Source: Nitrospirota bacterium | Lineage (GTDB): Bacteria > Nitrospirota > Thermodesulfovibrionia > Thermodesulfovibrionales > UBA6898 | DNA: 34,365 nt | Assembly (NCBI GenBank): GCA_004321925.1 | Contig: SCQH01000053.1 | Coordinates: 1-34,365, forward strand | Reading direction: 5' to 3' | Shown here: positions 4,853 through 23,513 of the stretch, piece by piece | Layout of the letters: each line of letters begins with the position of its first letter | How positions within the stretch are numbered: the stretch's first letter is position 1 | Position numbers and translations under genes: made by a program | Notes under the pieces: generated by a model | Databases searched by the model: none | Told to the model about the DNA's origin: nothing | What the model saw: only the letters and a program-made list of their open reading frames with translations

Positions 4853-4856
4853 CCGG

Positions 4857-7321: not shown

Positions 7322-7755
7322 CAGCAGACAAGACGGTGCGGGGCGATACGGCATTTGAACCGAAGATCATCGGGTTCCTCTGCAACTGGTGTTCCTATGC
7401 CGGCGCTGACAAGGCGGGGACGGCGCAGAGTCCATATCCACCCAATGTGAATGTTATCAGGGTGATGTGCAGCGGCAGGATAGACCCCCAGTTCGTGATG
7501 AAGGCCTTTGAGCAGGGCGCCGACGGGGTCATCATCCTGGCCTGCCATCCCGGCGACTGTCATTACAAAGAGGGCAACTACCGTGCGGCGCAGCGCTACC
7601 GGCTTCTGCTTCAGCTGCTTGAGCCCTTCGGCATTGAACGGGAGCGGTGCAGGTTCGATTTTGTCTCTGCAGGAGAGGGTGATAAGTTTGTGCAGGTCAT
7701 AACGGAGATGGTGGAGACGGTCAGGGCATTGGGACCGTTAATAATTCCTGCGTAA
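7318..7755 (+). CDS. mvhD: MvhD-type [2Fe-2S] electron-transfer subunit
   Basis: MvhD links the hydrogenase MvhAG to HdrA. The 145-residue protein shows the family Cys pattern: FLCNWCSYAGAD (C22, C25), RVMCSGRIDP (C51) and ACHPGDCHYKEGN (C76, C81). Family knowledge places a [2Fe-2S] cluster on such residues. The ATG at 7318 overlaps the hdrA stop (ATGA), and a longer in-frame extension from 7231 is rejected as an overlap artefact. With the four upstream genes this completes an MvhAGD-HdrA module. It is the last tightly coupled gene; a 46-nt gap follows. Confidence 0.92.
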   Translation: MTADKTVRGDTAFEPKIIGFLCNWCSYAGADKAGTAQSPYPPNVNVIRVMCSGRIDPQFVMKAFEQGADGVIILACHPGDCHYKEGNYRAAQRYRLLLQLLEPFGIERERCRFDFVSAGEGDKFVQVITEMVETVRALGPLIIPA

Positions 7756-7801
7756 CAGGCAAAAATCATGTATATTATAAAAAACTCAAGGAGGGATGTT
7801 A

Positions 7802-8023
7802 ATGCCATTATATACACTTGATGCACGGGGCCTGAAATGCCCCCAGCCGACCCTGAAGATCACTGCCCAGGCCGTCCGGATGAAGCCGGGAGATGTGCTG
7901 GAAGCAGTTGCAGACTGCCCGACCTTTGAAAAGGACGTCAGGGACTGGTGCACCCGCTCCCGGAAGGTACTGCTCTGGATCCGTGAGGAAAGCGGCGCAA
8001 AGAAATGCCAGATCCAGTTCTGA
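7802..8023 (+). CDS. tusA: TusA/SirA-family sulfur carrier protein
   Basis: A 73-residue protein of the TusA fold, which carries sulfur as a persulfide on a conserved Cys. The signature LDARGLKCPQPTLKI is present, with the active Cys in CPQP (C13). The ATG at 7802 lies 6 nt after AAGGAGGG (7788-7795); the in-frame ATG at 7796 touches the Shine-Dalgarno and is less likely. The C-terminal half (a WC motif, then WIREESGAKKCQIQF) fits the family. It sits 46 nt after mvhD and may be read through from that operon. In organisms with dissimilatory sulfur metabolism TusA often lies near hdr-like genes, so a sulfur-transfer role with the HdrA complex is plausible. A role in tRNA thiolation cannot be excluded. 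Confidence 0.88.
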   Translation: MPLYTLDARGLKCPQPTLKITAQAVRMKPGDVLEAVADCPTFEKDVRDWCTRSRKVLLWIREESGAKKCQIQF

Positions 8024-8136: not shown

Positions 8137-8658
8137 ATGGACGACAGAAGAAGAAATGACCTGATCATCGAAGAGCTGAGAAGGCGTAAAAGGAAAGAGG
8201 CAACCGTCGATGTAGAGGCGGAGAGCCTGAAGATCGTGATCTTTAGGCTCGGGGATGGTCTCTATGCCTTCCCGGGCGCCGATGTGAAGGAGATCCTGCC
8301 CTTCACGGACATGTCCCCTGTCCCGGGGGCGCCGGACTTCATCCCGGGCGTTATCAATAACCGGGGAGACATTGAGTCCGTCATCAGCCTCAACAAATAC
8401 CTGGGCCTTCCGGACAGCAACAGGACCGCAGCCAGCCGGATCGCCATGGCCTCGAAGGCCGGCGTGCGTTCCGGGGTCCTTGTGGATGCGGTGGTTGATG
8501 TTGCAGATGTGCCGCTCGATTCGATCAAACCGCCGCTGTCCACGCTCGACCCCGCGATAAAGGAACTGGTGACCGGGGAAATGATGTATAACGGGAGGAC
8601 CGTCGTGATGCTCGACATCGGACGCTTATTCGAAAAACTGGTTGTCCATGACGAATGA
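8137..8658 (+). CDS. cheW: CheW chemotaxis coupling protein
   Basis: The first gene of the chemosensory operon. CheW links receptors to CheA in the signalling array. After about 25 charged residues (a run rich in Arg, Lys and Glu), the CheW fold starts near IVIFRLGDGLYAFPGADVKEI and continues with PGAPDFIPGVINNRGDIESVISL, the most conserved CheW stretch, and ends with VVMLDIGRLFEKL. Length is 173 residues, in the family range. ATG 8137 follows CAGGAAAGAC; the alternative TTG at 8110 has no benefit. The next CheW-like gene overlaps its 3' end by 11 nt. Confidence 0.92.
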   Translation: MDDRRRNDLIIEELRRRKRKEATVDVEAESLKIVIFRLGDGLYAFPGADVKEILPFTDMSPVPGAPDFIPGVINNRGDIESVISLNKYLGLPDSNRTAASRIAMASKAGVRSGVLVDAVVDVADVPLDSIKPPLSTLDPAIKELVTGEMMYNGRTVVMLDIGRLFEKLVVHDE

Positions 8659-9088
8659 CGAAACAACAGGGGGTGGTGCTCTCCCCCCTGAGATGGACCT
8701 CCTTATGTTCACCGCGGCCGGCCTGAAAATGGCTGTTGACACTTTTGGGGTGGACTGCATCATGAGCTCTGAAGAGGCGCAGCAGCTGGGGGTCTCCTTC
8801 TCCACCTTGAACGAAATCTTTGGGTTCGGAAAAGAGGGCTCCCGGGCGGAGAAAACGGTTCTCCTGTATAAGACCGGGAACGAGGCCCGCGGGATCAGCG
8901 TCGACGGGCTCGATGCCATCATGACGGTTCCGACCGGGGCCATACAGCCCCTCCCCTGGCCCCTTTCGAATTTTGCCGGACCGCGGTTGTTCTGGGGCAT
9001 TGTCCAGCGCGGAAGCGATCTGGTCCTGCTCATTGATCTGTACCGGCTGAACGTCCTGAAATCATGCAATGCGGTGACAACCGCTTGA
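8648..9088 (+). CDS. Divergent CheW-like protein
   Basis: A 146-residue protein whose fold pattern matches a CheW domain: an N-terminal LLMFTAAGLKMAVDTFGVDCIM strand pair and a C-terminal LFWGIVQRGSDLVLLIDLYRL corresponding to the last CheW strand. The central PG.INNRG motif of ordinary CheW is missing, so it is a divergent member. The start ATG at 8648 overlaps the upstream cheW by 11 nt with a weak Shine-Dalgarno; TTG 8642 in the same frame is an alternative. Together with cheW it may give the array two non-equivalent adaptors. A CheV role is unlikely because there is no receiver domain. Confidence 0.75.
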   Translation: MTNDETTGGGALPPEMDLLMFTAAGLKMAVDTFGVDCIMSSEEAQQLGVSFSTLNEIFGFGKEGSRAEKTVLLYKTGNEARGISVDGLDAIMTVPTGAIQPLPWPLSNFAGPRLFWGIVQRGSDLVLLIDLYRLNVLKSCNAVTTA

Positions 9089-9106
9089 AAGAGAGGAAGA
9101 AAGAAC

Positions 9107-10342
9107 ATGTCTAAAATAGTATTTCTCAACAATGAAGCGACTTCGAAGGGCCAGCTCATGCTGCTGCTCATACTTCCGTTGGTCCTGGCCATCACGGCCT
9201 TCATGCTGCTTTCCCTGTCGGTGATCAAGACCGGCGGAGAAAAACATCTGGAGGCATACGAACAGGCCCTGCAGAGTGAGGGGAACGCAGCGGTCAGGCC
9301 GTTCCTGGACCGAAACGGGCTGATGGCCCGGGAGCAGGCCCTCTCCACCGAAATGTCCCGGCTCTTCATGAAGCGGGCACTCCTGCTGTCCGTCCTGCTC
9401 CTGCTCTGCACCGGATATATGATCAGCCGCCTTCAAAAAAGGTTCTATGACGACATTGAAAAGGCATCTGACATTGTCAGGAACATGGGCTCCTGTGCCG
9501 GTATGCTGTCCGTTACCGTCGAACAGTATGCGGCGATCTCCTCCGATGAGTCCGCATCAATATCGGAGATCACGTCAACGACAGAGGAGCTTTCCGCCTC
9601 TTCGACCCAGATCGCCGAGCATGCAAAAGCAGTGGTGGACACTGCCCAGAAGACCTGGGAGGACACGAAAAAGGGCGCCACGGCAATTGAATCGATGATG
9701 ATGAAGATGGCCGAGATACAGGGGGACAGTCAAAAGAGTGCCGAGGAGATCCTTGACCTCGGAAAAAAGTCCCGGGAGATCACGAAGGTCATGGAGATCA
9801 TCAACTCCATTGCCGATCATACGAAGCTGCTCGCCTTCAACGCAGCGCTTGAGGCGTCGAGCGCCGGCGAGGCGGGGAAACGCTTCGGGGTCGTTGCGGC
9901 CGAGATCCGCAGGCTTGCCGACAGCGTGACAGAGTCCACGGGCGAGATAGAGGGGAAGATCAACGAGATCCAGGAGGCGGTGAACAACCTGGCCGTTGCC
10001 TCGGAAAAGAGCTCTCGGGGTATCGAGCAGGGCATGGAGTTCTCCTCGCAGACGGCCTCGCTGCTTTCCGATATTGTTGAGGCCGCCCACACGACCATGG
10101 ACTCTGCCAAGCAGATATCTCTTTCCACGCAGCAGCAGAAGACGGCGAACAGCCAGGTCGTCATAGCCCTGCGCGAGATCATGCATGGCGCGAGCACGAC
10201 GTCTGCCTCTGTTGAATCGCTCAGCACCATAAGCTCTCAGCTGGCCGCGTTGTCCGAGAGCCTCGCCCAGATACTGAAAAAGCTCGGATATAAGGGCGAC
10301 GTATCACTGCCGGGACCGGCAGAGTGTGGAGTCAAGGCATAA
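9107..10342 (+). CDS. Methyl-accepting chemotaxis protein with a minimal periplasmic loop
   Basis: A 411-residue membrane receptor that controls CheA. Helix TM1 is about residues 16-39 and TM2 about 88-105, leaving only about 48 residues outside the membrane, too few for a usual ligand domain. No clear HAMP domain is seen. A long coiled-coil signalling domain follows; its hairpin tip (IADHTKLLAFNAALEASSAGE to FGVVAAEIRRLADSV, about 236-273) identifies the family. The usual Arg of the ARAGE motif is Ser here (SSAGE). The C-terminus lacks an NWETF-type pentapeptide tether for CheR and CheB. GAGAGGAAG at 9091-9099 precedes the ATG. It is probably the sole cognate receptor of this cluster, sensing through the membrane helices, a partner protein or the membrane state. 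Confidence 0.92.
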   Translation: MSKIVFLNNEATSKGQLMLLLILPLVLAITAFMLLSLSVIKTGGEKHLEAYEQALQSEGNAAVRPFLDRNGLMAREQALSTEMSRLFMKRALLLSVLLLLCTGYMISRLQKRFYDDIEKASDIVRNMGSCAGMLSVTVEQYAAISSDESASISEITSTTEELSASSTQIAEHAKAVVDTAQKTWEDTKKGATAIESMMMKMAEIQGDSQKSAEEILDLGKKSREITKVMEIINSIADHTKLLAFNAALEASSAGEAGKRFGVVAAEIRRLADSVTESTGEIEGKINEIQEAVNNLAVASEKSSRGIEQGMEFSSQTASLLSDIVEAAHTTMDSAKQISLSTQQQKTANSQVVIALREIMHGASTTSASVESLSTISSQLAALSESLAQILKKLGYKGDVSLPGPAECGVKA

Positions 10343-10345
10343 GGC

Positions 10346-11410
10346 ATGATGAAGAAGGTAGGCGTCCTCATTGTGGACGACAGTGTTCTGGTGAGGAACC
10401 TCATAAGGGCGATCATCGAGATGGACCCGGAAATGGAGGTCGTGGGCGAGGCGTCCAACGGTCTCGAGGCCATCGAGAGGGTGTGGGGCCTTCGTCCGGA
10501 CATCGTTACGATGGACATCGAAATGCCTGTCATGGACGGCCTCCAGGCCATCGAACGGATCATGGCGGAGAATGCCGTCCCGATCCTGGTGGTGACCTCC
10601 CGGGGCGATGCGAAGACCGCCTATGCCGCGATATCGAAAGGCGCTCTCGACCTTGTGCTGAAGCCCAGCCTTAACGCTGAGGCTGCACAGGAGTTTGGGG
10701 CAAAGCTCAAGCTTATGTCAAAGGTCAGGGTGGTAACGCATATTTCCGGGCGACGCGCACATATGCCTTCCGTTGCCGTAGAGACGCCGGACTTTGGTGA
10801 GGACCTGTCGGACCGGATAGTTGCCATCGCCTCATCTACGGGCGGGCCGGACGCCCTGTCCATTATTTTGTCGCGGCTGCCTGATAAGTTTCCCGTGCCG
10901 ATCGTGATCGCGCAGCACATCTCCGACGGCTTTGTGAGCGGTATGGTCGGCTGGCTCAAATCGCTCTCACGGGTCGGGATCAAGGTGGCTGCGGACGGGG
11001 AATATCTCAGGCCGGGCATGGCCTATGTATGCCCGCCGGAAAACCATATGCGGATCGACCACCTGAAAAGGATCATCTATGTTGCGAGACAGGAGAAGGA
11101 CATCTACCGGCCGTCCTGCGACATGCTGCTGGCGTCGGTGGCTGAAGCATTCGGCAATAAGGCAGTTGGTGTCATCCTCACCGGTATGGGGAGCGACGGG
11201 GTTGAGGGGATAAAGAGGATCAGGGAGGCGGGGGGCAGAACGATAGCCCAGAACGAGATGACCTCCATCATCTTCGGGATGCCGAAACTCGCGATCGAGA
11301 GCGGTTGTATCGACGCAGTGCTTCCGCTGGAGGCGATCAGCAGCGAAATAGCGCGGGCAGCGGCTGCGGACGTAAGGGGTCCTGCGGCCCGGGCGGGGTC
11401 ATGCAGCTGA
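10346..11410 (+). CDS. cheB: CheB receptor methylesterase / response regulator
   Basis: CheB removes methyl groups from receptor glutamates after phosphorylation by CheA. The 354-residue protein has an N-terminal receiver domain (acidic pair D11/D12, phosphoacceptor D57 in TMDIEMP, and Lys in LVLKPS) and a C-terminal methylesterase domain. The catalytic triad is visible: S164 in IASSTGG, H191 in IAQHIS and D284 in GMGSDG. Both domains look intact. ATG 10346 is followed by a second ATG at 10349 and either could be used. It overlaps cheR by 10 nt. Confidence 0.96.
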   Translation: MMKKVGVLIVDDSVLVRNLIRAIIEMDPEMEVVGEASNGLEAIERVWGLRPDIVTMDIEMPVMDGLQAIERIMAENAVPILVVTSRGDAKTAYAAISKGALDLVLKPSLNAEAAQEFGAKLKLMSKVRVVTHISGRRAHMPSVAVETPDFGEDLSDRIVAIASSTGGPDALSIILSRLPDKFPVPIVIAQHISDGFVSGMVGWLKSLSRVGIKVAADGEYLRPGMAYVCPPENHMRIDHLKRIIYVARQEKDIYRPSCDMLLASVAEAFGNKAVGVILTGMGSDGVEGIKRIREAGGRTIAQNEMTSIIFGMPKLAIESGCIDAVLPLEAISSEIARAAAADVRGPAARAGSCS

Positions 11411-12843
11411 AACCCTTTAAATGCCTGATCAGGGAGAAATGCGGGTTGTCGTTCGATGATTCCCGCGAGGCGATCCTGACCGAGGGGATCAAGTCGAGGC
11501 TGTCCCGGCGGGCACTCGCCTCACACGAGGAATACCTTGATCTCCTGGCCAGGGAACCGCATGAATTCAACAGTCTTCTGAACCTCATCACGGTCAACGA
11601 GACCTATTTCCTGCGGGAGTCGGTGCACTTTACCCTCCTCACCGAAAAACTGCTGCCGGACATGCTTGCAGGGAAGAAAGGCGGCAGGATCAAGATCGTC
11701 TGCGCGGGCTGTTCGACAGGCGAGGAGCCTTACTCGATCGCGATGGCGCTCATGATGAAGTTCGGTCCGGCATTCAGCAGATTGTTTTCCCTTGTCGCCT
11801 TTGATATTGATGAAGAGGCGCTCGGCAAGGCGAGGGCAGGCCTGTATCCCGGACATTCCTTCCGGGGTGTCCCGGACCACATACAAAAGGTTTTTTTCAG
11901 GGAACAGGGAAACGGCTTCAGGATCAATGACGCGGTCCGGGAGGGAGTGGAATTCCTGCGGCTGAACCTCTTTTCCGATTCGTATCCGGAGACGGTCATG
12001 AATGCAGACGTCATCTTCTACCGGAACGTCTCGATCTATTTTGAGCCCGGGGCCCAGCAGCGCATTTTCAGGAACCTGGCAGGCATGCTCAACGAAAAGG
12101 GCTATCTCTTTCTGAGCTCGGCAGAAACCTCCGTTCATGATATCGGGGTCCTCTCCCTTATTGAAATGGAGGGGATCTACCTCTATGGAAAAGGGGTTGC
12201 GGTTGAGATCGGGGAAAGAAGAAAACAGCCTGACGGCCGGCCTAAACCGTTTTCCGCCGCGCCGCCGGGGGTCCCCGGAGCAGCTGCCGCGGGAACGAAA
12301 CGCCCGGTAATAAGGAAAAAGGACGAACCGCACCAGGACTTTGACCGGGCTCTCGCCCTTGCCGGGGGCAAGAAGTATGACGATGCGCTGCAGCTTACCG
12401 AACGCATCATCGGCATGCAGCCCTCTTTCGTGAAGGCCCACATGCTGCGGGCCGGCATCCTGATCAACCTGCAGAGACTCGATGAGGCAGAAACAGTATG
12501 CCTCTGCGGCATGGGGCATGATCAGTGGAATCTCGAAGGACATCTCCTGCTCGGTCTGATAGCCCGGGCCCGGGGGGATGTGGAGGAGGCAAAAAAGAGG
12601 TTCAAAAAAGCGGTCTACGTCAAATCTTCCTGTTGGCTTGCCCACTTTTATCTCGCGGAGATCTACCGGGGTGAGGGCGACAGGCAGCCGGCATGCAGGG
12701 AGTTCGAGATCGTGATAAAGCTGTTGGAAGAAAAAGGTTTTTCTGAACACGGGCTTACGTTCTTTTCCCTGTCATTCCCGATGGAGCAGGTCGTGCATCT
12801 CTGTAGACATAACCTCGCTGAGATGAAACGCGGGAAGGCTTAG
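11401..12843 (+). CDS. cheR: CheR receptor methyltransferase with C-terminal TPR region
   Basis: CheR methylates receptor glutamates using S-adenosylmethionine. The 480-residue protein has the CheR N-terminal helical part, the SAM-binding motif CAGCSTGEEPYSIAM at 101-115 and YRNVSIYF at 207-214, where most CheR have CRNVLIYF. After a Pro/Ala linker (about 275-310), residues about 315-470 form TPR-like helical repeats (for example FDRALALAGGKKYDDALQL and AHFYLAEIYRGEGDRQPACREFE). CheR-TPR fusions are known in non-flagellar chemosensory systems, where the repeats mediate protein contacts. I chose ATG 11401, inside the cheB end; the frame stays open upstream to 11305 but has no CheR similarity. 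A 13-nt gap leads to cheA. Confidence 0.94.
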   Translation: MQLKPFKCLIREKCGLSFDDSREAILTEGIKSRLSRRALASHEEYLDLLAREPHEFNSLLNLITVNETYFLRESVHFTLLTEKLLPDMLAGKKGGRIKIVCAGCSTGEEPYSIAMALMMKFGPAFSRLFSLVAFDIDEEALGKARAGLYPGHSFRGVPDHIQKVFFREQGNGFRINDAVREGVEFLRLNLFSDSYPETVMNADVIFYRNVSIYFEPGAQQRIFRNLAGMLNEKGYLFLSSAETSVHDIGVLSLIEMEGIYLYGKGVAVEIGERRKQPDGRPKPFSAAPPGVPGAAAAGTKRPVIRKKDEPHQDFDRALALAGGKKYDDALQLTERIIGMQPSFVKAHMLRAGILINLQRLDEAETVCLCGMGHDQWNLEGHLLLGLIARARGDVEEAKKRFKKAVYVKSSCWLAHFYLAEIYRGEGDRQPACREFEIVIKLLEEKGFSEHGLTFFSLSFPMEQVVHLCRHNLAEMKRGKA

Positions 12844-12856
12844 CAGGGGGAACGGG

Positions 12857-15040
12857 ATGGCATTCGACGTCACAAAGTTCATCGCCAGGTTTGTGGAAGA
12901 AGCCCGCGACCACGTCGCGGCCCTCAACCGGGGCCTCGTCGAGCTGGAGAAGGACCCCGGCGACGGGGAAAATCTGAATGCGATCTTCCGGGCCGCGCAT
13001 ACCATCAAGGGCTCCTCGCGCATGCTGAAGCTGACGGACATAACCGAGGTGGCCCACACGCTGGAAGACGCACTCGGGGCGCTGCGTGACAAGCGGATCT
13101 CCCATACACGGGAGCTTGCAGAGCTTCTCTACCGGGGTGTTGACGCCCTGTCTGCAATGGTGGAAACGATGTCTGCCGGAGGGCAGATCAGCATGGACAA
13201 TGCCCCCCTCTGCGAGGCCCTTGCCCGGGCTGCCGCCGGGGCTCCGGCCACCGGCAGTGCGGGCCGGGAAGAAAATAAGGCAGCGCCTCTCAGTCGAGCG
13301 GTGGGCGTTGAGCCCCCGTCAGCGCAACAGGCAAAGCAGGTCTCCCCGGAGAGCATCCGGGTGAAGTCCGAAAAGCTCGACGACCTGATACGGCTGATGG
13401 GCGAGGTCGTATCCCATCAGAACAAGCTCAAACAGCGCATCGCCGACCTCAGCGTCCTGGAGCGGGAAGCGAAACAGACCCTCGACAGCTGCTCCCGGGC
13501 CTGCGAGGACAGATCCCTCGCTAATGCCCGGTCCCTGCATCTGGGACTCAAACAGCTCCTGTCCGTCATGCGGCAGGACAAGACCCTGCAGGACATACTC
13601 ACGGCAGAGTTCCAGGAAAAGGCCCTGATGCTGCGCATGGTGCCTCTTTCGACCATCTTCGATCCGCTGCACCGGCTCGTGCGCGACATCTCGACCTCTC
13701 TCGGCAAAGAGGTGGACTTTGAGATCGAGGGCGGCGGGATCGAACTGGATAAAAAAATGGTCGAGAAATTAAGCGATCCTCTCATGCATATGCTCAGAAA
13801 TTCGATAGACCATGGCATTGAGGAGCCGCAGGTCCGCCGGCAGACCGGCAAACCCGTAAAAGGGAAGGTGCGGCTGTCAGCGTCCTGCGATGCCGGCAAT
13901 ATCCTTATAGAGCTCTTCGACGACGGTGGGGGTATCTCTGCCGCAAAGATAAAGGAGAAGGCGCTGGCAAGAAAGATGTTCGAGGCGGCTGCCCTCGAAG
14001 GGATGCCTGAGCCGGCGCTGCTCGACCTGATCTTCCTGCCGGGCTTCAGTACCAGCGGCTTCATAACGGATATCTCCGGCAGGGGAGTCGGCATGGACGT
14101 GGTAAAGAGGAACATCGTCGAAGACCTTAAAGGGACCGTGCATCTCAGCACCAAAGAGGGGCAGGGCAGCATCTTCACGGTCAGGATCCCCATGACGCTT
14201 GCCATCATGCGGGTCCTCCTGGTCTCCTGCCGCGGAATAACGTGCGGCATCACGACGCACTATGTGACTGAGATCATCCGGGTGGAGAGGACGGAGATCA
14301 TCAGTGTTGTCGACCGCAAGGCGCTGCGGCTGCGTGAAGAGTTCATCCCGGTGACCGACATGGGAGATATCCTGAACTTCAGGCCCAACGGCGGGAAGCA
14401 GCCCGGGATGCTGCTGGTGCTTATTGTGCAGGTCGGGGCTGAAAAGACCGGCTTGATTGTGGATGCCGTTCTCGACGAGGAGGATATGGTGATCAAGTCC
14501 CTGCCCGACCACCTCAAGAGGGTGCAGCTGGTTTCGGGGGTCACCGTATCGGGAAGGAACGAGATCATCAACATCCTGAACATGCCGGCGCTCATGGAGG
14601 CTGCAAAGAGCGCCCGCGCCGGCCGGCCGGCCGGCCAGTCAGCAGAGGAGGCCGGACAGGAGATCAATATCCTGGTCGTCGACGACTCCATCAATACGCG
14701 GGAGATCGAAAAGAGCATCCTCGAGGCTTACGGCTACCGGGTGACCATCGCCGGTGACGGCATGGAGGCCCTCGACATGGCAGGCGGATCGAAATTCGAC
14801 CTGGTCATCACTGACGTGGAAATGCCGCGCCTCGACGGGTTTTCACTTACCGAGCGGCTGAGGTCCGACAGTTCCTACAAAGATGTGCCGATCATCATCG
14901 TGACGTCGAGGGAAAAGGATGAGGACAAGAAGCGGGGGATCAGTGTCGGGGCAGACGCCTACATCGTCAAAGGGGCGTTCGACCAGAGCAACCTTGTTGA
15001 AACCGTGCAGAATCTAATCGGAAAGGGAAAGGATATATGA
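12857..15040 (+). CDS. cheA: CheA histidine kinase with C-terminal receiver domain (hybrid CheA)
   Basis: The central kinase of the array. The 727-residue protein has one Hpt domain (phospho-His H48 in AAHTIKGSSRM), a low-complexity linker (about 110-160) in place of a P2 domain, a dimerisation helix region, and the kinase domain (N-box MLRNSIDHGIE at 312-322, G1 FDDGGGI at 354-360, GRGVGMDVVKRNI). A CheW-like domain follows, then a receiver domain from about 603 (VVDDSINTR, phosphoacceptor D653 in ITDVEMP, Lys in YIVKG). AGGGGGAACGGG precedes the ATG. The stop overlaps the next gene (ATGA). The operon has no stand-alone CheY, so the fused receiver and the following REC-PP2C protein are the likely phosphate acceptors. 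Confidence 0.96.
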   Translation: MAFDVTKFIARFVEEARDHVAALNRGLVELEKDPGDGENLNAIFRAAHTIKGSSRMLKLTDITEVAHTLEDALGALRDKRISHTRELAELLYRGVDALSAMVETMSAGGQISMDNAPLCEALARAAAGAPATGSAGREENKAAPLSRAVGVEPPSAQQAKQVSPESIRVKSEKLDDLIRLMGEVVSHQNKLKQRIADLSVLEREAKQTLDSCSRACEDRSLANARSLHLGLKQLLSVMRQDKTLQDILTAEFQEKALMLRMVPLSTIFDPLHRLVRDISTSLGKEVDFEIEGGGIELDKKMVEKLSDPLMHMLRNSIDHGIEEPQVRRQTGKPVKGKVRLSASCDAGNILIELFDDGGGISAAKIKEKALARKMFEAAALEGMPEPALLDLIFLPGFSTSGFITDISGRGVGMDVVKRNIVEDLKGTVHLSTKEGQGSIFTVRIPMTLAIMRVLLVSCRGITCGITTHYVTEIIRVERTEIISVVDRKALRLREEFIPVTDMGDILNFRPNGGKQPGMLLVLIVQVGAEKTGLIVDAVLDEEDMVIKSLPDHLKRVQLVSGVTVSGRNEIINILNMPALMEAAKSARAGRPAGQSAEEAGQEINILVVDDSINTREIEKSILEAYGYRVTIAGDGMEALDMAGGSKFDLVITDVEMPRLDGFSLTERLRSDSSYKDVPIIIVTSREKDEDKKRGISVGADAYIVKGAFDQSNLVETVQNLIGKGKDI

Positions 15041-16197
15041 AGCCTGATAACGGAAGCGTGAGCATCCTGGTGGCCGATGACGACCCGCTCGTGAGGGAGA
15101 TGCTGGCCATAATCCTGCAGGACGAGGGGTATAGGGTCGACACGGCAGAGAACGGCGCCGAGGCACTGAACAAGTTCAGCGCCGGGGACCCGATCAGCCT
15201 TATCGTGTCCGACATGAACATGCCTCAGCTCGACGGTATGGGCCTGATCAGAGCGGTCCGGGACGCGGGGGCTGATCTGCCGATCATCATCCTGACGGGG
15301 AACAGTGAAGTGACAACCGCCATCCAGGCGCTGAAGACCGGGGCCAGCGATTACATCCTGAAGGACGAAAATATTCAGGACACCATCGGCATTGCCGTGG
15401 AGAAGGCGCTCGAAAAGCATTATCTTAAAAAACAGAACCAGCAGCTTCAGGAGGAACTCGCCCGGAAGAACGAGAAGCTCGAACATGAAAAGGCCCTTGC
15501 CCAGAAGGTCCAGAAGAGCATCCTGCCGCGTGACCTCCGGTTTCAGGGGGTCGAGGTGGGCTCGTACTACCGGCCGTCAGACAAGATCGGCGGCGACTTT
15601 TTCGACGCCTGGGAGAACAGCGATAAGGTACACTTCCTGATAGGCGATGTGTCCGGCCACAGCACCTCATCGGCCCTGATCATGGCAGTCAGCAAAGGGA
15701 TCCTCCATTCCCTCGGGCATACCCTGAGCGATCCCCGGGAGATCGTCAGGACCGCCAACCGGATGATATGCAATATCGTCAGCGACAGCGGCATGTTTCT
15801 GACCCTGCTCTACGGCGTGCTCGACCGGACTACGGATGAGCTGACGGTCGTCTCTGCGGGGCATAATCCTGTTTTCCTGGTGAAAGATGCTGAGGTCACG
15901 AGCCTGGATTCGACGGGTTCGGTCATCGGCTGGGACCCCGAGGACACCTGGGATGCCACATCAGCTGTCCTTTCAGCCGGCTCAAGCCTTGTGCTCTATA
16001 CGGACGGTCTGACAGAGGTCAAGGACCAGGCCGGCGCGGAATTCGGCGAGAAGGGGTTGGAGGCCCTCCTCGGAGAGGCCCTGCCCGCAGGGGCGATGAT
16101 CACCAGGATCGTGCAGAACGTTGAGACCTTCTGCACAGGGGAGTTCCAGGACGACCTGACCCTGCTGATCCTGAGGCGGATGCCGGCGGATGGGTGA
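15037..16197 (+). CDS. Response regulator with PP2C/SpoIIE-type serine phosphatase output (RsbU/HsbR-like)
   Basis: A 386-residue protein: receiver domain 8-125 (D14-D16 acidic cluster, phosphoacceptor D59 in IVSDMNMP, Lys in YILKDE), a coiled coil about 126-162 (KKQNQQLQEELARKNEKLEH), and a SpoIIE/RsbU phosphatase domain 165-385. The metal-binding motifs all look intact: KIGGDFFD (D187, D190), GDVSGH (D204), SAGHNP, YTDGLTEV and FQDDLTLLIL. The expected role is to dephosphorylate a STAS protein, here the one encoded two genes downstream, under control of CheA. The start overlaps cheA (ATGA) and the end overlaps the next gene by 8 nt. Its layout is like P. aeruginosa HsbR without the fused kinase domain. 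Confidence 0.93.
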   Translation: MKPDNGSVSILVADDDPLVREMLAIILQDEGYRVDTAENGAEALNKFSAGDPISLIVSDMNMPQLDGMGLIRAVRDAGADLPIIILTGNSEVTTAIQALKTGASDYILKDENIQDTIGIAVEKALEKHYLKKQNQQLQEELARKNEKLEHEKALAQKVQKSILPRDLRFQGVEVGSYYRPSDKIGGDFFDAWENSDKVHFLIGDVSGHSTSSALIMAVSKGILHSLGHTLSDPREIVRTANRMICNIVSDSGMFLTLLYGVLDRTTDELTVVSAGHNPVFLVKDAEVTSLDSTGSVIGWDPEDTWDATSAVLSAGSSLVLYTDGLTEVKDQAGAEFGEKGLEALLGEALPAGAMITRIVQNVETFCTGEFQDDLTLLILRRMPADG

Positions 16198-16633
16198 TGC
16201 CGTGGTGAAGATGAAGATCGAGCCGACCTTCGAGAATGTTTCCGCGGTCCGGCTGGCAGTGCAGGATGTCTGCCGGAAACAGTATGGGTGGCCGGGGGCG
16301 GAACCGCTCATCGACGAACTGCTGATGGCGGCCACGGAGGCGATGAACAATGCGGTCGAGCATTCGGGTGCGAAGGAGGTGGAGATCGAGCTCATTGCAG
16401 GTGCCCGGCGGCTTGTCGTGCGCGTTTTGACGGCAGGGAAGCGTTTTGATCCCCCGTCGGAGGTTGCCTTCCCCGATCTGGATGGCCCCGGCGGTCTGCC
16501 CGAGGGAGGGTTTGGCCTCGCCATCATCAGGGAAATGGCCGATGCAGTACACTATGATTATTGTGATGGGAAAAATATAGTCACGCTGGAAAAAAATATT
16601 TCTGAGAACGAAGGAGGACAGGATGGAAATTAA
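16190..16633 (+). CDS. RsbW-like GHKL ATPase-fold protein with degraded ATP site
   Basis: A 147-residue single-domain protein of the anti-sigma-factor kinase type. The N-box is clear (EAMNNAVEHSG, with E50, N53 and N54), and a glycine-rich lid appears at 105-113 (EGGFGLAII). The G1 box should read like V.D.G.GFDP, but the sequence is VLTAGKRFDP: the Asp that contacts adenine is Thr81 and the second Gly is Arg85. It may therefore bind ATP poorly or act as a binding partner only. In partner-switch systems this protein phosphorylates or sequesters the STAS partner. It overlaps its neighbours on both sides. ATG 16190 is the earliest plausible start; ATG 16211 is also possible. Confidence 0.85.
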   Translation: MGDAVVKMKIEPTFENVSAVRLAVQDVCRKQYGWPGAEPLIDELLMAATEAMNNAVEHSGAKEVEIELIAGARRLVVRVLTAGKRFDPPSEVAFPDLDGPGGLPEGGFGLAIIREMADAVHYDYCDGKNIVTLEKNISENEGGQDGN

Positions 16634-16985
16634 AATTGGCATGGACGGAGATTTCGTGATCGCCGAGCTGTCGGGAGATCTTGTGGCAGGCACGGCAGAG
16701 CAGTTCAAGTCGCAGATGACGAAGCTTATGGAAAAGAACTTTCTGAACGTGGTCCTTGAACTGAGCAAGGTGAACTTCATGGACAGTTCCGGCCTGGGGG
16801 CCTGTATGGCGGCGCACAAGGCGTTCGCCGAAAAAAAGGGGACCCTCGTCTGCACAAAGCCGAGCGAGACCGTGGCCAAGGTCTTCCGCGTTACCCGGGC
16901 CGACCAGAAACTGAACATGGCAGGGACCCGGACCGAGGCGGTCATGTTCCTGCAGAACGCCGTGCAGAGCGGGAGGCAATCATGA
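16623..16985 (+). CDS. STAS-domain protein (anti-sigma factor antagonist / HsbA-like)
   Basis: A 120-residue single STAS domain. The phosphorylation motif VNFMDSSGLGA contains S55/S56 directly after D54, the site phosphorylated in SpoIIAA- and RsbV-type proteins. A very strong Shine-Dalgarno, AAGGAGGACAG at 16611-16621, lies inside the end of the ATPase-fold gene, so this protein may be made in excess over its neighbours. The stop overlaps the pilB-like start (ATGA). No sigma factor gene is in the window, so the target may instead be the motor ATPase or the diguanylate cyclase encoded next, by analogy with HsbA and HsbD in P. aeruginosa. Confidence 0.93.
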   Translation: MEIKIGMDGDFVIAELSGDLVAGTAEQFKSQMTKLMEKNFLNVVLELSKVNFMDSSGLGACMAAHKAFAEKKGTLVCTKPSETVAKVFRVTRADQKLNMAGTRTEAVMFLQNAVQSGRQS

Positions 16986-18727
16986 GGGAGCCGGGAAAGC
17001 TGGGAGAGATCCTGATCGAAAAGAAGATCATCACCACCGCGCAGCTCGAAGAGGCCCTGACAAAGATGCAGGAGCACTCTCTGCCGCTTGGCGAGATGCT
17101 GATCCAGTTGAGATTTGTCAGCGAACATATGATGCTCGACACCCTGAGCAAGCACCTCGGGGTCGATTTCCTGAACCTTGCGGAAAACGATTACCAGATA
17201 GTGGACAAAACGCTGTCGCGGGTGCTCCCCCTGGAGCTTTGCCAGAAGAGCAAGGTCCTGCCGGTCTTCCAGATCCTCGACGAGGACATCAGGGAACTGA
17301 CCCTTGCCATGGCCGATCCCTTTCAGGAGGAGGTCATCAACGAGGTCGCCTCGATCACGGAGTGCCGCGTCAACCCGGTTCTGGCGACGCAAGCGTCGAT
17401 CGAAGCCGGGATTTCCAAGCTGTATTCCATCAAGACCGATATCAAGATCGAAAAGTATTCCATGCAGAAGGGCGACGCCACGGCACTCGTCAACAGCATG
17501 CTTCAGAACGCGGTAAGGCTTGGCGCAAGCGATATCCACGTCGATCCTCACGAGAAAGAATGCTTTGTCCGGATGCGGATCGATGGTGTGCTTGAGGCTG
17601 TTTCCGTCTATCCGATCGCCATGCATGCCTCCGTCTCAACAAGGATAAAGGTGCTGGCAAGCGCGGCAAATTCGGTCATGAAGATCGAGGAGCGGCGGCT
17701 TCCGCAGGACGGGGCGATCGTGGGCAAGTTTGACGGACATCAGGTGGACTGCCGCGTATCGACGCTTCCCTCTATTTATGGGGAAAAGGTCGTCATCAGG
17801 ATATTCGATAAGGACAAGGCGGCCTACATCGGCCGCATCAGAGACCTGAAAATGTCTCCGCGCATGGAGCTCAAGTTCCGGCGGTGCGTGAGGCATCCAA
17901 GCGGGATCAACCTCGTCACCGGGCCGACCGGCAGCGGAAAGACGACGACACTGCATGCGGTGATCAACGAGATCAGCTCGGTCGGCATCAGCGTCGTGAC
18001 CGTTGAGGACCCGGTCGAATACCAGGCCGGCGGCTATGTGAACCAGAGTTCGCTCATCCCGGCAGCCGGCTACACCTATACCCGCGCCCTGCGGGCCATC
18101 ATGCGGCAGGACCCTGATGTCATCCTGATCGGCGAGGTCCGCGACCGTGAAACTGCCGAGATCGCGACCCAGGCAGCCCTGACAGGGCATCGTGTCTTTA
18201 CCACGCTCCATACCGACAATGCGGCCGGTTCATTCGCCCGCCTGATCGACATCGGGGTGGAACACTTCCTTGTCTCCTCCACGACGGTTTCATCCCTGAA
18301 TCAGCGCCTGATCCGGAAGGTCTGCACCAACTGCGCTGAAGAGCATGTCCCGACAAGGGTAGAGCTGGCCGACATCGGCATTGACGACGACGTGATAAAG
18401 GAGATCCTGGACAATCCCCAGCAGTTCAGCATGCGCCGGGGCACGGGCTGCAGCCAGTGCCGCAAGACCGGGTATCGGGGGAGACAGGGGGTCTATGAGC
18501 TGATCACGGTCACCCCGGAGATACGCGAACTCATTCACCGCAACAAGTCAACGGATGTGATCGCTACAACAGCCAGGGAAAAGGACAACGTCAATATGAT
18601 CTTCGAGGAAGGCCTGCGGCTCTTTCTGACCGGGGTCACCACCCTCGGGGAGATGCAGCACCTGCCTCGTGGTGATTATAAGATGAAGTCGGTTGCCGAG
18701 ATCCTGAAGGATTCAGAGATCCAGTGA
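16982..18727 (+). CDS. pilB: Type IV pilus / type II secretion assembly ATPase (PilB/GspE/MshE family)
   Basis: The cytoplasmic hexameric motor that powers pilus (or pseudopilus) extension. The 581-residue protein starts with an MshEN-like region of two 24-residue motifs (6-29 and 35-58, 5-residue spacer), then the ATPase: Walker A GPTGSGKTT at 314-322 (K320), Asp box VTVEDPVEY, Walker B LIGEVRDRETAEIA, His box TGHRVFTTLHTDNA and a zinc-binding tetracysteine (C448, C451, C490, C493). The last feature favours an assembly ATPase over the retraction ATPase PilT. The MshEN motifs lack several c-di-GMP-contact residues (see findings). Its ATG overlaps the STAS stop, placing a pilus motor at the end of a chemosensory operon. 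PilB versus GspE cannot be settled from sequence alone; the pilus genes downstream favour PilB. Confidence 0.9.
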   Translation: MREPGKLGEILIEKKIITTAQLEEALTKMQEHSLPLGEMLIQLRFVSEHMMLDTLSKHLGVDFLNLAENDYQIVDKTLSRVLPLELCQKSKVLPVFQILDEDIRELTLAMADPFQEEVINEVASITECRVNPVLATQASIEAGISKLYSIKTDIKIEKYSMQKGDATALVNSMLQNAVRLGASDIHVDPHEKECFVRMRIDGVLEAVSVYPIAMHASVSTRIKVLASAANSVMKIEERRLPQDGAIVGKFDGHQVDCRVSTLPSIYGEKVVIRIFDKDKAAYIGRIRDLKMSPRMELKFRRCVRHPSGINLVTGPTGSGKTTTLHAVINEISSVGISVVTVEDPVEYQAGGYVNQSSLIPAAGYTYTRALRAIMRQDPDVILIGEVRDRETAEIATQAALTGHRVFTTLHTDNAAGSFARLIDIGVEHFLVSSTTVSSLNQRLIRKVCTNCAEEHVPTRVELADIGIDDDVIKEILDNPQQFSMRRGTGCSQCRKTGYRGRQGVYELITVTPEIRELIHRNKSTDVIATTAREKDNVNMIFEEGLRLFLTGVTTLGEMQHLPRGDYKMKSVAEILKDSEIQ

Positions 18728-18857
18728 ACCGGGCGCGGGGAGAAACAGTGCCCGCTGTAAAGCCGGCACTCTGCCGGTGCATGCGGCAGCGCGGCTTGTT
18801 GCCCATGCAGCGGGGGACGCGTGAAACCTCTGCAGGAAGAGGAGAGTTCTTCCGGAC
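18728..18857 (+). promoter_or_regulatory. Structured leader between pilB and the GGDEF gene
   Basis: This 130-nt gap is rich in possible hairpins: ACAG/CTGT, CCGGCA-ctc-TGCCGG (about 18766-18780), and GGCA paired with TGCC farther on. A small stem, GGAAG at 18835-18839 with CTTCC at 18849-18853, holds the probable Shine-Dalgarno AGGAGAG in its loop. No T-run follows any stem, so a Rho-independent terminator is unlikely. It may control how much cyclase is made. No named riboswitch is assigned. Confidence 0.3.
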
Positions 18858-20510
18858 ATGACCCATCCTAACGAAACGGTCAGGGAAAAACTCAAAGGCC
18901 TGCGCAAGGTCTTTGAAGCCCAGCTTCCGGGGAAGATCCTGCAGATAGAAGGAGCCTGGGATGGGATGTTCCGTGACGGGTGGGACCCCCAAAAGGCCGA
19001 GGAGACGGCCCAATTGCTCCATACTCTTGCAGGCACCGCGGGCACCTTCGGTTACACTTCAGTGCGCGGAGCGGCCCGCGCTTTGGAGGCAATGCTCAGG
19101 ACGGCTGTTAAGGATGGCGTGGCCCCGTCAACCGGTGAACATCTCGCGGCGCTCAAGGCCGCCTGCGGCGAAACTGCCGTATCCCTGCCACTGCCGGCCC
19201 CGGCTGAGGCTGCCCCGGAGACTTCTCCGGACCAGCCTGACAGCGACGAGATATTTCTGGTCGATGCTGACCCTCTGTTCTGCACGTCTGTCGCAGACCA
19301 GCTCCGGTGCTATGGATACCGGGTCTCCACCTTCAGTTCGCATGCCGCCCTCAATGAGGCCCTGACGTCATCGGTCCCGCGGATCATTATCATGGACCTC
19401 TTCTTTCCTAAGGGCACTGCTGCCGGAGACAGCATCACCGGGATCCAGCAGGGACGCAAAACGCCTGTCCCGGTGATGTTCCTGTCAGACGGCAGTGATT
19501 TCAGCAGCCGGCTGGAGGCCGTGCGGTCGGGTGGTCATGCCTATTTCGTCAAGCCGGTGGATGTCGGCCGGATGGTCGACCGGCTTGATGTCCTGACGGC
19601 GCGAAGGCCCCGCGCTCCCTTCCGCATCCTGATCATAGACGACGAGCCGCTCCTGGCAGACTATCATGCGACCGTTCTGCGGCAGGCGGGCATGACGGCT
19701 GCCGTGGTCACCGAGCCTCAGCGGGCTATGGACTCTCTTATCGATTTCAGGCCTGAGTTGATCCTGATGGACGTCTACATGCCGGGCTGCAGCGGGATGG
19801 AACTGGCCAACCTGATACGGCAGGACGAAACGTACATCGATATCCCGATCGTCTACCTGTCTTCGGAAACGGATGTCAACCGCCAGCTTGCCGCCATGGG
19901 CCTGGGCGGTGACGATTTTCTCACGAAGCCCATTCAGCCCGACCATCTGATCACGTCGGTCTCGCTCCGCGCGGACCGGTATCGGACCCTGCGTTCTTTT
20001 ATGCTCTATGACGGCCTGACGGGGCTGTTGAACCATACAAAGACGAAGGAGCAGCTGGACATCGAGGTGTCCCGCGCCTTACGGCAGAAGACGGACCTTT
20101 CCTTTGCCATGATCGATATCGACCATTTCAAGTCGGTCAACGACACCCACGGTCACCCTGTCGGCGACCAGGTCATCAAGAGCCTGTCCCGCCTGCTGAA
20201 ACAGCGGCTGAGAACCACGGACACTATCGGCCGCTTCGGCGGTGAGGAGTTTGCGGTCATCCTGACGGACACCGACAAAGGGACGGCACAGAGGATCCTG
20301 AACGAGCTGCGGGAGGATTTTGCAAAGATCCGCCATACCAGCCGCGAAGGCCTTTTCCCGGTCACATTCAGCTGCGGAGTTGCCTGTCCTGCCCCGGGGG
20401 AAACCGGAGCTGAGCTGATCGAGAAGGCCGATAAGGCCCTCTACAGGGCCAAGATGTACGGCCGGAACCGGGTGGTCTGCGAAGAGCCCGGCGGGGCATC
20501 AACAGGATGA
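18858..20510 (+). CDS. Hpt-REC-REC-GGDEF diguanylate cyclase
   Basis: A 550-residue cytoplasmic signalling protein that should make c-di-GMP. Order: Hpt-like domain (about 10-105, H55 in LLHTLAGTAGTFGY), Ala/Pro linker, receiver 1 (131-248; D180 in IIMDLFF, Lys in YFVKPVD; the acidic pair is D-A-D, a slight deviation), receiver 2 (256-372; D261/D262, D305 in LMDVYMP, Lys in FLTKPI) and GGDEF (380-540). The active site reads GGEEF at 461-465. An inhibitory I-site RTTD (452-455) lies five residues before it, so the cyclase is probably active and product-inhibited. Shine-Dalgarno AGAGGAGAG lies 11 nt upstream of the ATG. It follows pilB after 130 nt and is likely a target of the same chemosensory pathway. 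Confidence 0.93.
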   Translation: MTHPNETVREKLKGLRKVFEAQLPGKILQIEGAWDGMFRDGWDPQKAEETAQLLHTLAGTAGTFGYTSVRGAARALEAMLRTAVKDGVAPSTGEHLAALKAACGETAVSLPLPAPAEAAPETSPDQPDSDEIFLVDADPLFCTSVADQLRCYGYRVSTFSSHAALNEALTSSVPRIIIMDLFFPKGTAAGDSITGIQQGRKTPVPVMFLSDGSDFSSRLEAVRSGGHAYFVKPVDVGRMVDRLDVLTARRPRAPFRILIIDDEPLLADYHATVLRQAGMTAAVVTEPQRAMDSLIDFRPELILMDVYMPGCSGMELANLIRQDETYIDIPIVYLSSETDVNRQLAAMGLGGDDFLTKPIQPDHLITSVSLRADRYRTLRSFMLYDGLTGLLNHTKTKEQLDIEVSRALRQKTDLSFAMIDIDHFKSVNDTHGHPVGDQVIKSLSRLLKQRLRTTDTIGRFGGEEFAVILTDTDKGTAQRILNELREDFAKIRHTSREGLFPVTFSCGVACPAPGETGAELIEKADKALYRAKMYGRNRVVCEEPGGASTG

Positions 20511-20610: not shown

Positions 20611-21228
20611 ATGAATAACAGGGAACAGGACAATAAGGATTTCGACAGACTCCTTGGTGAATCTGCAAGGATCCACGGACATCTCTGTCCCGGGCAGGTG
20701 CTCGGGGTGAAGATGTCGATGCTCGGGCTCCGGGAGATCGGCATCTCCGATCCGAAGGGAAAAGACAGAAAGAGCCTCATCGTTTTTGTCGAGATGGACC
20801 GGTGCGCTACCGATGCGGTGCAGTCTGTCACCGGCTGCAGCCTCGGCCACAGGACCATGAAATTCATGGATTACGGCAAGATGGCCGCGACCTTCCTGAA
20901 CCTTAAGACCGGAAAGGCTGTCCGGGTCATCGCAAAAGAGGAATCGAGGCAGCGTGCAAAGGGATATTTCCCTGAGATCGAAAACAAGTACACTGCCCAG
21001 CTTAAGGCGTACAAAATAATGCCTGATGCAGAGCTCTTTGATCTGATGGCGGTGACGGTCTCAATTCCGCCTGAGGACATGCCCGGCAGGCCGCTCGACC
21101 GAGTCACCTGTGATGCCTGCGGTGAACAGGTCCAGGACATGCGGGAAGTGTCAAAGGACGGCCGTACGCTCTGCAGACCCTGTGCCGGGCCGGGATATTA
21201 CACCAGGCCAAAATGTGATATTATTTGA
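20611..21228 (+). CDS. FmdE-family protein with C-terminal zinc ribbon
   Basis: A 205-residue protein of the FmdE family, named from the molybdenum formylmethanofuran dehydrogenase operon of methanogens; its biochemical role is not settled. The signature IHGHLCPGQVLG (H22, H24, C26) starts the core, with a second set of candidate ligands at C65, C76 and H80. A small C-terminal zinc ribbon has C167/C170 and C188/C191 (CDACGE...CRPCAG). The ATG at 20611 fits the usual distance to the HGHLCPG motif, and the next Met would cut into the core. It has no Shine-Dalgarno (see the promoter entry). Followed by a ModE-like regulator and a MoeA-like protein, it belongs to a molybdenum or tungsten-linked group. 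No formylmethanofuran dehydrogenase is present. Confidence 0.88.
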   Translation: MNNREQDNKDFDRLLGESARIHGHLCPGQVLGVKMSMLGLREIGISDPKGKDRKSLIVFVEMDRCATDAVQSVTGCSLGHRTMKFMDYGKMAATFLNLKTGKAVRVIAKEESRQRAKGYFPEIENKYTAQLKAYKIMPDAELFDLMAVTVSIPPEDMPGRPLDRVTCDACGEQVQDMREVSKDGRTLCRPCAGPGYYTRPKCDII

Positions 21229-21254
21229 TCAGCGTTATGCAATCAGTCCATAAC
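21225..21254 (+). promoter_or_regulatory. Putative promoter of the ModE-like gene
   Basis: TTGATC (21225-21230) and CATAAC (21249-21254) with an 18-nt spacer form a modest sigma70-like promoter. The -10 lies inside the right arm of the inverted repeat at 21233-21255, so a protein bound there would block RNA polymerase. The -35 overlaps the end of the FmdE gene. Confidence 0.4.
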
Positions 21255-21255
21255 G
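21233..21255. promoter_or_regulatory. Probable ModE-type operator
   Basis: A perfect inverted repeat, CGTTATG (21233-21239), 9 nt, CATAACG (21249-21255). The outer arms CGTTAT...ATAACG match the E. coli ModE box as I recall it. It lies 18 nt before the start codon of the ModE-like gene, so feedback control by molybdate status is the simplest reading. Confidence 0.65.
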
Positions 21256-21273
21256 AAATACGGAGAGCTATTC

Positions 21274-21621
21274 ATGGAGATTAAATCAAAGCTCTGGATA
21301 GAGGTCGACGGCAGGCCGGTCTTCGGCAGGGGCCGGAGGTTCCTGCTGGAGGCCATTGACCGGTACGGCTCCATCAATCAGGCGTCAAAGGAGATAAACA
21401 TCTCCTACAGGAAGGCCTGGGGCTATATCAAGGCGATGGAGGAGAGGCTCGGTTTTAAACTGATCGAACGACAGACCGGAGGGAAGAACGGGGGCGGCGC
21501 CATCCTTACCGGAGAGGCACGGGTATTTTTGAAAAATTATGCTGCAGTTGAAAAAGGGATGCAGGAACTCGTTGATAAACGGTTCGAATCCATATTCAGG
21601 CCGAAAATGAAGATAAAATGA
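21274..21621 (+). CDS. modE: ModE-like molybdenum transcriptional regulator, DNA-binding domain only
   Basis: A 115-residue protein matching the N-terminal winged-helix domain of ModE: GSINQASKEINISYRKAWGYIKAMEERLGFKLIER, then a Gly-rich wing (TGGKNGGGA) and LTGEA. Full ModE (about 260 residues in E. coli) has two C-terminal molybdate-binding domains; these are absent here, as in many short ModE proteins. How it senses metal is therefore unknown; the flanking FmdE or MoeA-like proteins could take part. Shine-Dalgarno GGAGAG (21262-21267) precedes the ATG. The next gene starts 33 nt downstream. Confidence 0.88.
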   Translation: MEIKSKLWIEVDGRPVFGRGRRFLLEAIDRYGSINQASKEINISYRKAWGYIKAMEERLGFKLIERQTGGKNGGGAILTGEARVFLKNYAAVEKGMQELVDKRFESIFRPKMKIK

Positions 21622-21654
21622 GACAGTTTTTTTACAAACCCGTCAGGAGGACTT

Positions 21655-23205: not shown

Positions 23206-23513
23206 AGAAGGTCATTTCCATGCTTTTGGTGCTGATTGTATTCGGGACCTGTGCGGTCGCATATGCAGCACCCGACTCACGACATAACTACTTCAACGGG
23301 ATCGTCGAATATATCGGGCCGACAACCATAATGGTCAGCGGTACGCAATTCAACCTTGCTCAGAAGGTGGATGTCCTTATCCAAGAGAGCAATAACGGCA
23401 TTATCAATAATCGTCCCGGCAGGATGGGCGACATTTCAAAGGGCAATTCAGTGACCGTCAAGGAAAGCGGCAATGTCGTCATCGAAATTACGATCGAGAG
23501 GTGGAAGAGATGA
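23202..23513 (+). CDS. Small exported protein of unknown function preceding PilY1
   Basis: A 103-residue protein with a clear signal peptide (MKKVISMLLVLIVFGTCAVAYA, probable cut after A22). The mature part (about 80 residues) appears to be all beta: FNGIVEYIGPTTIMVSGTQFNL, then VDVLIQ, then a basic turn (NNRPGRMGDISKG), then VTVKESGNVVIEITIERW. The pattern recalls small OB-like or DUF5666-like exported domains, but I cannot assign a family. ATG 23202 is chosen because AGGAGG lies 5 nt upstream and the signal peptide starts there. The stop overlaps the pilY1 start (ATGA), so it is made together with PilY1 and may assist it in the periplasm. Confidence 0.8.
   Translation: MKKVISMLLVLIVFGTCAVAYAAPDSRHNYFNGIVEYIGPTTIMVSGTQFNLAQKVDVLIQESNNGIINNRPGRMGDISKGNSVTVKESGNVVIEITIERWKR

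Follow-up and report, generated by a model that had tools for sequence, protein, structure and literature searches.

A chemosensory operon with a partner-switch module and a divergent PilB paralogue in Nitrospirota: a possible route to a pilus motor without CheY

Background

Which protein does a STAS partner switch act on when it is encoded in a chemosensory operon, directly ahead of a pilus-type ATPase? This question is raised by a 34,365-nucleotide stretch of DNA from a Nitrospirota bacterium (contig SCQH01000053.1 of assembly GCA_004321925.1, hereafter the window), which is the complete contig C62 of a 100%-complete draft genome of 3.2 Mb whose closest named relatives are Thermodesulfovibrio-type Nitrospirota. 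Eleven genes between positions 8137 and 20510, all confirmed by Pfam to carry the expected domains, encode two CheW proteins, a methyl-accepting chemotaxis protein (MCP), CheB, CheR, CheA, a phosphatase with a receiver (REC-PP2C), an RsbW-like GHKL protein, a STAS protein, a PilB/GspE-type ATPase, here referred to as PilB1, and a diguanylate cyclase of Hpt-REC-REC-GGDEF type.

CheA-type kinases control type IV pili in the Pil-Chp system, whose output is the CheY-like PilG/PilH, and a REC-GGDEF cyclase in the Wsp system, whose output is WspR. Modules consisting of a PP2C phosphatase, a kinase and a switch protein are found in SiaABCD of Pseudomonas aeruginosa and Bgr of Sinorhizobium meliloti, where they act on a diguanylate cyclase, not on a sigma factor. 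The target of non-canonical STAS switches, e.g. HmpV in the pilus motility of Nostoc, is an open question (PMC8256260). For the window, the original prediction, made from the sequence alone, proposed that CheA phosphorylates REC-PP2C, that the latter dephosphorylates the STAS protein, and that free STAS binds either PilB or the cyclase.

Results and discussion

Linkage of STAS and PilB genes

The gene following STAS was a PilB gene in all 17 loci with a readable STAS 3' side, namely PilB1 in 13 of them and a member of a second PilB clade in the other four, each clade receiving 100/100 support in the tree; one locus (L057) carries both clades in tandem. All 13 PilB1 genes found directly follow STAS. 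Among 396 Nitrospirota genomes, PilB1 occurs in nine and adjoins STAS in every one, six having the quartet and three retaining STAS-PilB1. Two genomes (G029 and G255, loci L188 and L213) have RsbW-STAS-PilB1 about 100 base pairs (bp) downstream of the cheB gene of a different operon, with the order CheA-MCP-MCP-CheR-CheB, a CheA of 35-38% identity and, in G255, a CheD-like gene (by inspection). No PilB appeared in the stretch read of five partner-switch loci that do not belong to the family (L039, L040/L141, L189, L208 and L209). The link that lasts best is that of STAS to PilB rather than that of CheA to the cyclase; CheA, PP2C and the cyclase all move. Because STAS and motor genes are adjacent across distant bacteria, PilB1 is the best candidate for the target of the switch.

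The full 11-gene order was also found in five other Nitrospirota genomes, i.e. in six genomes of two families, G003, G008, G014 and G024 belonging to the same family as the window's genome and G046 (locus L054) to another family of the order. As the same order recurs in six genomes of two families, the arrangement is not due to chance. A scan of 84,980 species genomes recovered more relatives in Desulfobacterales, Geobacteraceae, Desulfuromonadales, Deltaproteobacteria and 'Proteobacteria' metagenome-assembled genomes (MAGs; taxa as labelled), and the adjacency of cheA, REC-PP2C, STAS and pilB, far from being unique to this genome, is kept in Nitrospirota and in Desulfobacterota-type MAGs. The phosphatase is present in 6 of the 396 Nitrospirota genomes, and the system is therefore rare and patchy; in a 395-genome sample around G404, a close phosphatase orthologue was found only in G404 itself, the centre of the sample. 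Four further REC-PP2C matches were rejected as family members and treated as outgroup, namely G623, G801 and G687 (34-36% identity, no adjoining STAS-PilB) and, likewise, G309 (6.4e-46), the seventh match among the Nitrospirota genomes.

The cyclase is placed between CheA and PP2C in L057 and L059, and L060-L062 are without CheA, its place in L060 being taken by a hybrid kinase (PAS-HisKA-REC-Hpt). In G402, RsbW-STAS-STAS-PilB1 and the hydrogenase genes on the far side of the che operon are divergent. Duplicated STAS was observed in L056 (11588-12352), where the RsbW-like protein has an extra STAS domain fused at its N-terminus, and in L190 (8161-9067), where two STAS genes stand ahead of PilB1.

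Chemosensory input

The operon holds MCP, CheW, CheA, CheR and CheB genes together with the CheA catalytic residues, as expected of a chemosensory system. CheA is a hybrid kinase with a C-terminal receiver of its own, which the original prediction had not mentioned, and its His48, its N, G1 and G2 boxes and its receiver Asp653 are invariant in all 12 loci with a CheA of the operon type. Wherever the locus is CheA-linked and its copy full-length, the receiver of REC-PP2C keeps D15, D16, D59, T87 and K109 intact, and all 14 orthologues retain the metal-binding Asp residues of the PP2C domain; L061 and L062, where no CheA adjoins, have lost the receiver and kept the PP2C site. This pattern, a receiver intact with CheA and lost in L061 and L062, supports CheA (in L060 the hybrid kinase) as the phosphodonor, and phosphotransfer from CheA to REC-PP2C is, on these residues, likely to take place. 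By analogy with the HptB route, a relay from CheA-REC through the Hpt domain of the cyclase to the PP2C receiver is possible.

Flagellar chemotaxis is not indicated as the output. FliG is absent from the entire 100%-complete genome, which is therefore probably that of an organism without flagella. Among the window genes scanned with Pfam there is no flagellar, stand-alone cheY or sigma-factor gene, as originally noted, and the operon has no stand-alone receiver gene, i.e. no CheY-type output of the PilG/PilH kind. The genome contains six long CheA-type reading frames according to a CheW-domain search, the CheA identity of the other five being deduced from their length.

Three loci (L054, L055 and L058) include a gene for a periplasmic binding protein of the branched-chain-amino-acid type (Table 1), and the MCP of L054 has a HAMP domain; the window and its close kin lack the binding-protein gene, and the receptor of the window is short and without HAMP. 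Directly upstream of CheW1 (2382-8023), the window encodes NiFe hydrogenase subunits, HycI, an HdrA-like protein, FlpD/MvhD and a TusA-like gene. Much of this order recurs beside the che cluster in L034-L037, L054, L055 and L058, with NiFe hydrogenase-HdrA-FlpD genes as its neighbours in both phyla, which might point to redox or H2 as the input. Hydrogenase subunits of a Desulfobacterales MAG (L190, 5290-7571, and L055) are 69-78% identical to those of the Nitrospirota genome, a degree of identity that suggests horizontal transfer or mis-binning.

Partner-switch proteins

In a profile search the RsbW-like protein matched RsbW and SpoIIAB (6m36, 1.6e-19), and its predicted fold, with a predicted local distance difference test score (pLDDT) of 84.5, has RsbV/RsbW complexes as best matches. 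Its N box (Glu, Asn) and G2 box are invariant. The Asp of the G1 box, which contacts adenine in GHKL proteins, is absent in 16/16 members of the family, with Thr, Ser, Asn or Ala instead (Thr in the window), and present in 7/7 control relatives outside it; the N, G1 and G2 boxes that together characterize Rsb/SpoIIA-type kinases were thus not all found. Judged by these motifs, the protein would either bind ATP differently or no longer be a kinase.

The STAS protein scores above the cut-off for the NCBIfam anti-sigma antagonist superfamily, and its DSSG motif, with the presumed phospho-acceptor Ser55, shows no variation among the 13 family loci in the alignment. That both this Ser and the PP2C site are intact suggests that phosphorylation still matters and is under selection.

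The PilB1 ATPase

Alignments showed the Walker A and B motifs, the Asp box, the His box and the tetracysteine motif of PilB1 to be invariant columns, and PilB1 has a conserved C-terminal tail that the other PilB clade lacks. By sequence it is a divergent PilB paralogue, scoring 442.5 bits against the NCBIfam PilB equivalog TIGR02538, under the cut-off of 675.65. In all, the genome encodes six PilB/GspE-like ATPases and five PilC proteins, and as the PilC genes lie on contigs C5, C25, C64, C99 and C110, with none on C62, there is no PilC beside PilB1. Judged by neighbour genes, the other PilB/GspE-like ATPases stand in pilus or secretion operons; PilB1 does not.

The N-terminal domain of PilB1 is present (Pfam MshEN; NCBIfam NF053729, 58.4 bits, cut-off 38). 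As a receptor of cyclic diguanylate (c-di-GMP), MshEN makes its contacts through Arg, Gly and Gln residues of two motifs (PMC5013675). In the PilB1 of the window, motif I has R changed to K, G to K and Q to M, and motif II has R changed to P, G to R, L to M and Q to H; the main (housekeeping) PilB, on C101, retains 20 of the 22 MshEN positions. With the motif so eroded, c-di-GMP binding by PilB1 appears doubtful, rather than excluded, because the NCBIfam model still scores the domain as c-di-GMP-related.

Proposed mechanism and alternatives

We propose a non-flagellar chemosensory pathway in which a partner-switch module acting on a dedicated PilB paralogue would replace the usual CheY output. 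The receptor and CheW proteins would set the activity of CheA, which would phosphorylate the receiver of REC-PP2C; phosphorylated REC-PP2C would remove the phosphate from Ser55 of STAS; and STAS would then swap partner between the RsbW-like protein and PilB1, setting the extent to which PilB1 drives a type IV pilus machine. The cyclase would be a parallel output, most likely through phosphotransfer to its own Hpt/REC2 rather than through STAS. This chain from CheA through REC-PP2C and STAS to PilB1, with the cyclase in parallel, is the best explanation we can offer for the whole, although we hold it tentatively, at just short of an even balance, and we hold with about the same reserve that STAS acts directly on PilB1. 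A more specific claim, that the chemoreceptor array reaches the PilB paralogue by direct STAS binding while CheA-driven REC-PP2C and an atypical GHKL kinase set STAS phosphorylation, is possible and rather less probable.

Several points weigh against this explanation. The kinase step is in doubt because the G1 Asp is missing in all 16 family members; no orthologous REC-PP2C adjoins RsbW-STAS-PilB1 in G029 and G255; and L063 has CheB-CheR-CheA and receiver proteins without STAS or PilB. Gene adjacency can reflect co-expression only, PilB1 may not act on pili at all, its N-terminus still scores as a c-di-GMP domain (see above), and its AlphaFold model, with a pLDDT of 51, is too poor for use.

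In one alternative, STAS controls a sigma or anti-sigma factor whose gene lies elsewhere, with PilB1 merely co-transcribed because the regulon concerns pili. Sigma factors are the targets of the Rsb and SpoIIA switches, the fold search of the RsbW-like protein returned RsbW and SpoIIAB, and in P. aeruginosa HsbA acts on FlgM and HsbR on RpoS (PMC5085249, PMC6482189). However, the scan of window genes revealed neither a sigma nor an anti-sigma gene (the rest of the genome was not searched for sigma factors), and co-transcription alone explains neither the adjacency of STAS to two PilB clades across phyla nor the fact that this adjacency outlasts changes in the presence of CheA, PP2C and the cyclase, which makes such a target unlikely.

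Alternatively, the cyclase could be the true target, being activated by STAS in one phosphorylation state, with c-di-GMP then affecting pili or matrix. It occurs in the operon at seven loci and between CheA and PP2C at two, and its active site is intact: the Hpt His55, the REC2 Asp305, GGEEF and the I-site RxxD are kept in full-length copies, with the REC1 acceptor region varying among copies. A precedent exists in HsbD, which binds phosphorylated HsbA (PMC5085249), a polarity opposite to the binding of free STAS originally proposed. On the other hand, four loci (L056, L058, L188 and L190) showed no cyclase of this kind next to the switch and nonetheless retain STAS-PilB, and PilB1 is a poor candidate reader of c-di-GMP. 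Since its own REC2 is intact, the cyclase may instead receive phosphate directly, which would be a simpler input from CheA; it could take up the phosphate itself through Hpt and REC2, much as happens in systems of the Wsp or PleD type. Control of the cyclase by STAS, weakened further by the loci in which the cyclase is missing or moved, therefore seems quite unlikely.

An RsbW-like protein that is no longer a kinase might instead form, together with STAS, a regulatory scaffold on PilB1 that is tuned without Ser phosphorylation. The uniform loss of the G1 Asp in the family and its presence in the controls would fit, as would the missing orthologous phosphatase beside the triad in G029 and G255, but the invariant N-box Glu and Asn and G2 box, the invariant Ser of the STAS DSSG motif and a PP2C metal site intact in 14/14 copies render this improbable. 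A reverse flow, PilB1 reporting the pilus state to the chemosensory system, would recall Myxococcus xanthus PilB, which signals upstream of Dif independently of its role in pilus assembly (PMC5544727), and would suit a divergent paralogue with no adjoining PilC, but it is very improbable given the complete receptor-CheA-receiver-phosphatase chain directed at STAS and the invariant catalytic motifs of PilB1.

The original prediction thus stands as regards the gene adjacency, the step from CheA to REC-PP2C, which fits both the intact residues of the CheA-linked loci and the receiver loss in L061 and L062, and PilB as candidate target, which gains weight from its constant place after STAS. It does less well on the cyclase as a partner of free STAS, on a standard RsbW kinase, which a family uniformly lacking the G1-box Asp does not match, and on a plain pilus motor, PilB1 being one divergent paralogue among six PilB/GspE-like ATPases and having no PilC next to it.

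Relation to known systems

The window departs from Pil-Chp and Wsp in having a REC-PP2C partner switch interposed and no CheY encoded, and from SiaABCD and Bgr, which are without CheA input or PilB linkage. The nearest functional analogue is the Hmp system of Nostoc with HmpU/HmpV/HmpW, in which type IV pilus motility is likewise joined to chemosensory genes and to an Rsb-like switch that has STAS as its output (PMC8256260, PMC6495340). The Nostoc switch genes, judged by locus tags, are apart from the che-like locus (PMC10581220), whereas the window has a single operon that includes pilB.

The HptB-HsbR-HsbA-HsbD system of P. aeruginosa shares with the window a receiver-PP2C, a GHKL kinase domain and a single-domain phospho-Ser STAS protein, as well as a diguanylate cyclase, tied in that species to motility and biofilm; there, HsbA binds the HsbD cyclase when phosphorylated and turns to FlgM when dephosphorylated (PMC5085249, PMC6482189). 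HsbR is one three-domain REC-PP2C-kinase protein fed by stand-alone HptB, whereas in the window kinase and phosphatase are separate genes, the input is CheA and the Hpt is fused to the cyclase, with no FliG in the genome and PilB as the constant neighbour. In M. xanthus, a PilB ATPase is also functionally coupled to a chemosensory pathway, but, unlike PilB1, it is the pilus assembly ATPase, has c-di-GMP motifs and acts upstream of Dif, and the part of the report consulted describes no STAS switch (PMC5544727). The literature covered held no description of PilB, a partner switch and a chemosensory set together, which is weak evidence of novelty as most subscription journals lie outside that coverage. 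On the best reading, the parts are known and their combination is a new variant of chemosensory pilus control.

Operon layout and neighbouring genes

CheW1 to PilB are ten tightly packed genes (8137-18727; Table 1) with successive gaps of -11, +18, +3, -10, +13, -4, -8, -11 and -4 bp, and the coordinates bear out the ATGA overlaps described for cheA/PP2C (at 15037) and STAS/pilB (at 16982). The cyclase gene starts 130 bp downstream of pilB in the window; as its ATG overlaps the pilB stop in G003 (L034), it was counted as a member of the operon. CheW2 has a possible alternative start, TTG at 8642. A promoter and terminator scan gave the same counts as shuffled sequences.

Table 1. Genes of the window's operon and binding-protein genes of related loci (positions of the latter refer to their own locus)
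Feature	Position	Strand	Basis or remark
CheW1 coupling protein	8137..8658	+	Pfam CheW 1.7e-28
CheW2, divergent CheW-like	8648..9088	+	Pfam CheW 8.8e-8; same position in relatives
MCP receptor, very short sensor region, without HAMP	9107..10342	+	Pfam MCPsignal 1.9e-29 only
CheB methylesterase with receiver	10346..11410	+	Pfam; NCBIfam CheB above cut-off
CheR methyltransferase, C-terminal TPR	11401..12843	+	Pfam
CheA-REC hybrid kinase	12857..15040	+	Pfam; residue check
REC-PP2C (SpoIIE-type) phosphatase	15037..16197	+	Pfam SpoIIE 2.1e-45, REC 8e-28; residue check
RsbW-like GHKL protein	16190..16633	+	Pfam HATPase_c_2 9.5e-21; fold match RsbW, SpoIIAB; motif check
STAS protein, single-domain, DSSG motif	16623..16985	+	Pfam STAS 3.2e-16; motif alignment
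PilB1, divergent PilB/GspE-type ATPase	16982..18727	+	Pfam T2SSE 3.1e-108; NCBIfam; motif scan; tree
Hpt-REC-REC-GGDEF diguanylate cyclase	18858..20510	+	Pfam; residue check
Binding-protein gene, L054	2956-4113		between CheW2 and MCP; Peripla_BP_6
Binding-protein gene, L058	2767-3927		between CheW2 and MCP; Peripla_BP_6
Binding-protein gene, L055	2715-3878		between CheW2 and MCP; position and N-terminal resemblance

Downstream of the cyclase (20611-22944) lies a molybdenum-related group, encoding a zinc-finger FmdE-like protein, a ModE-like helix-turn-helix protein and a molybdopterin-binding-domain protein. It is followed, 3 kb from the cyclase (23501-33645), by a gene for a PilY1-like protein of 2092 amino acids and by pilin-like, PilW-like and Ig-domain genes. 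These PilY1 and minor pilin genes were rejected as part of the system and are regarded as chance neighbours, since they are absent next to the cluster in G008, G014 and G024.

Conclusions

In every family locus read, the constant neighbour of STAS is a pilus-motor paralogue, which reduces the question of the STAS target to one binding test. If the proposed mechanism is true, partner switching would connect chemoreceptors with a pilus motor in the absence of CheY, and a role would emerge for PilB paralogues that lack a PilC of their own. Direct binding of STAS to PilB1, if true, would mean that a partner switch operates post-translationally on a pilus motor rather than on a sigma factor, and would imply a kinase that binds nucleotide without the canonical G1 Asp. 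The uniform loss of this residue in a conserved GHKL family poses a clean biochemical question, namely how, or whether, ATP is bound.

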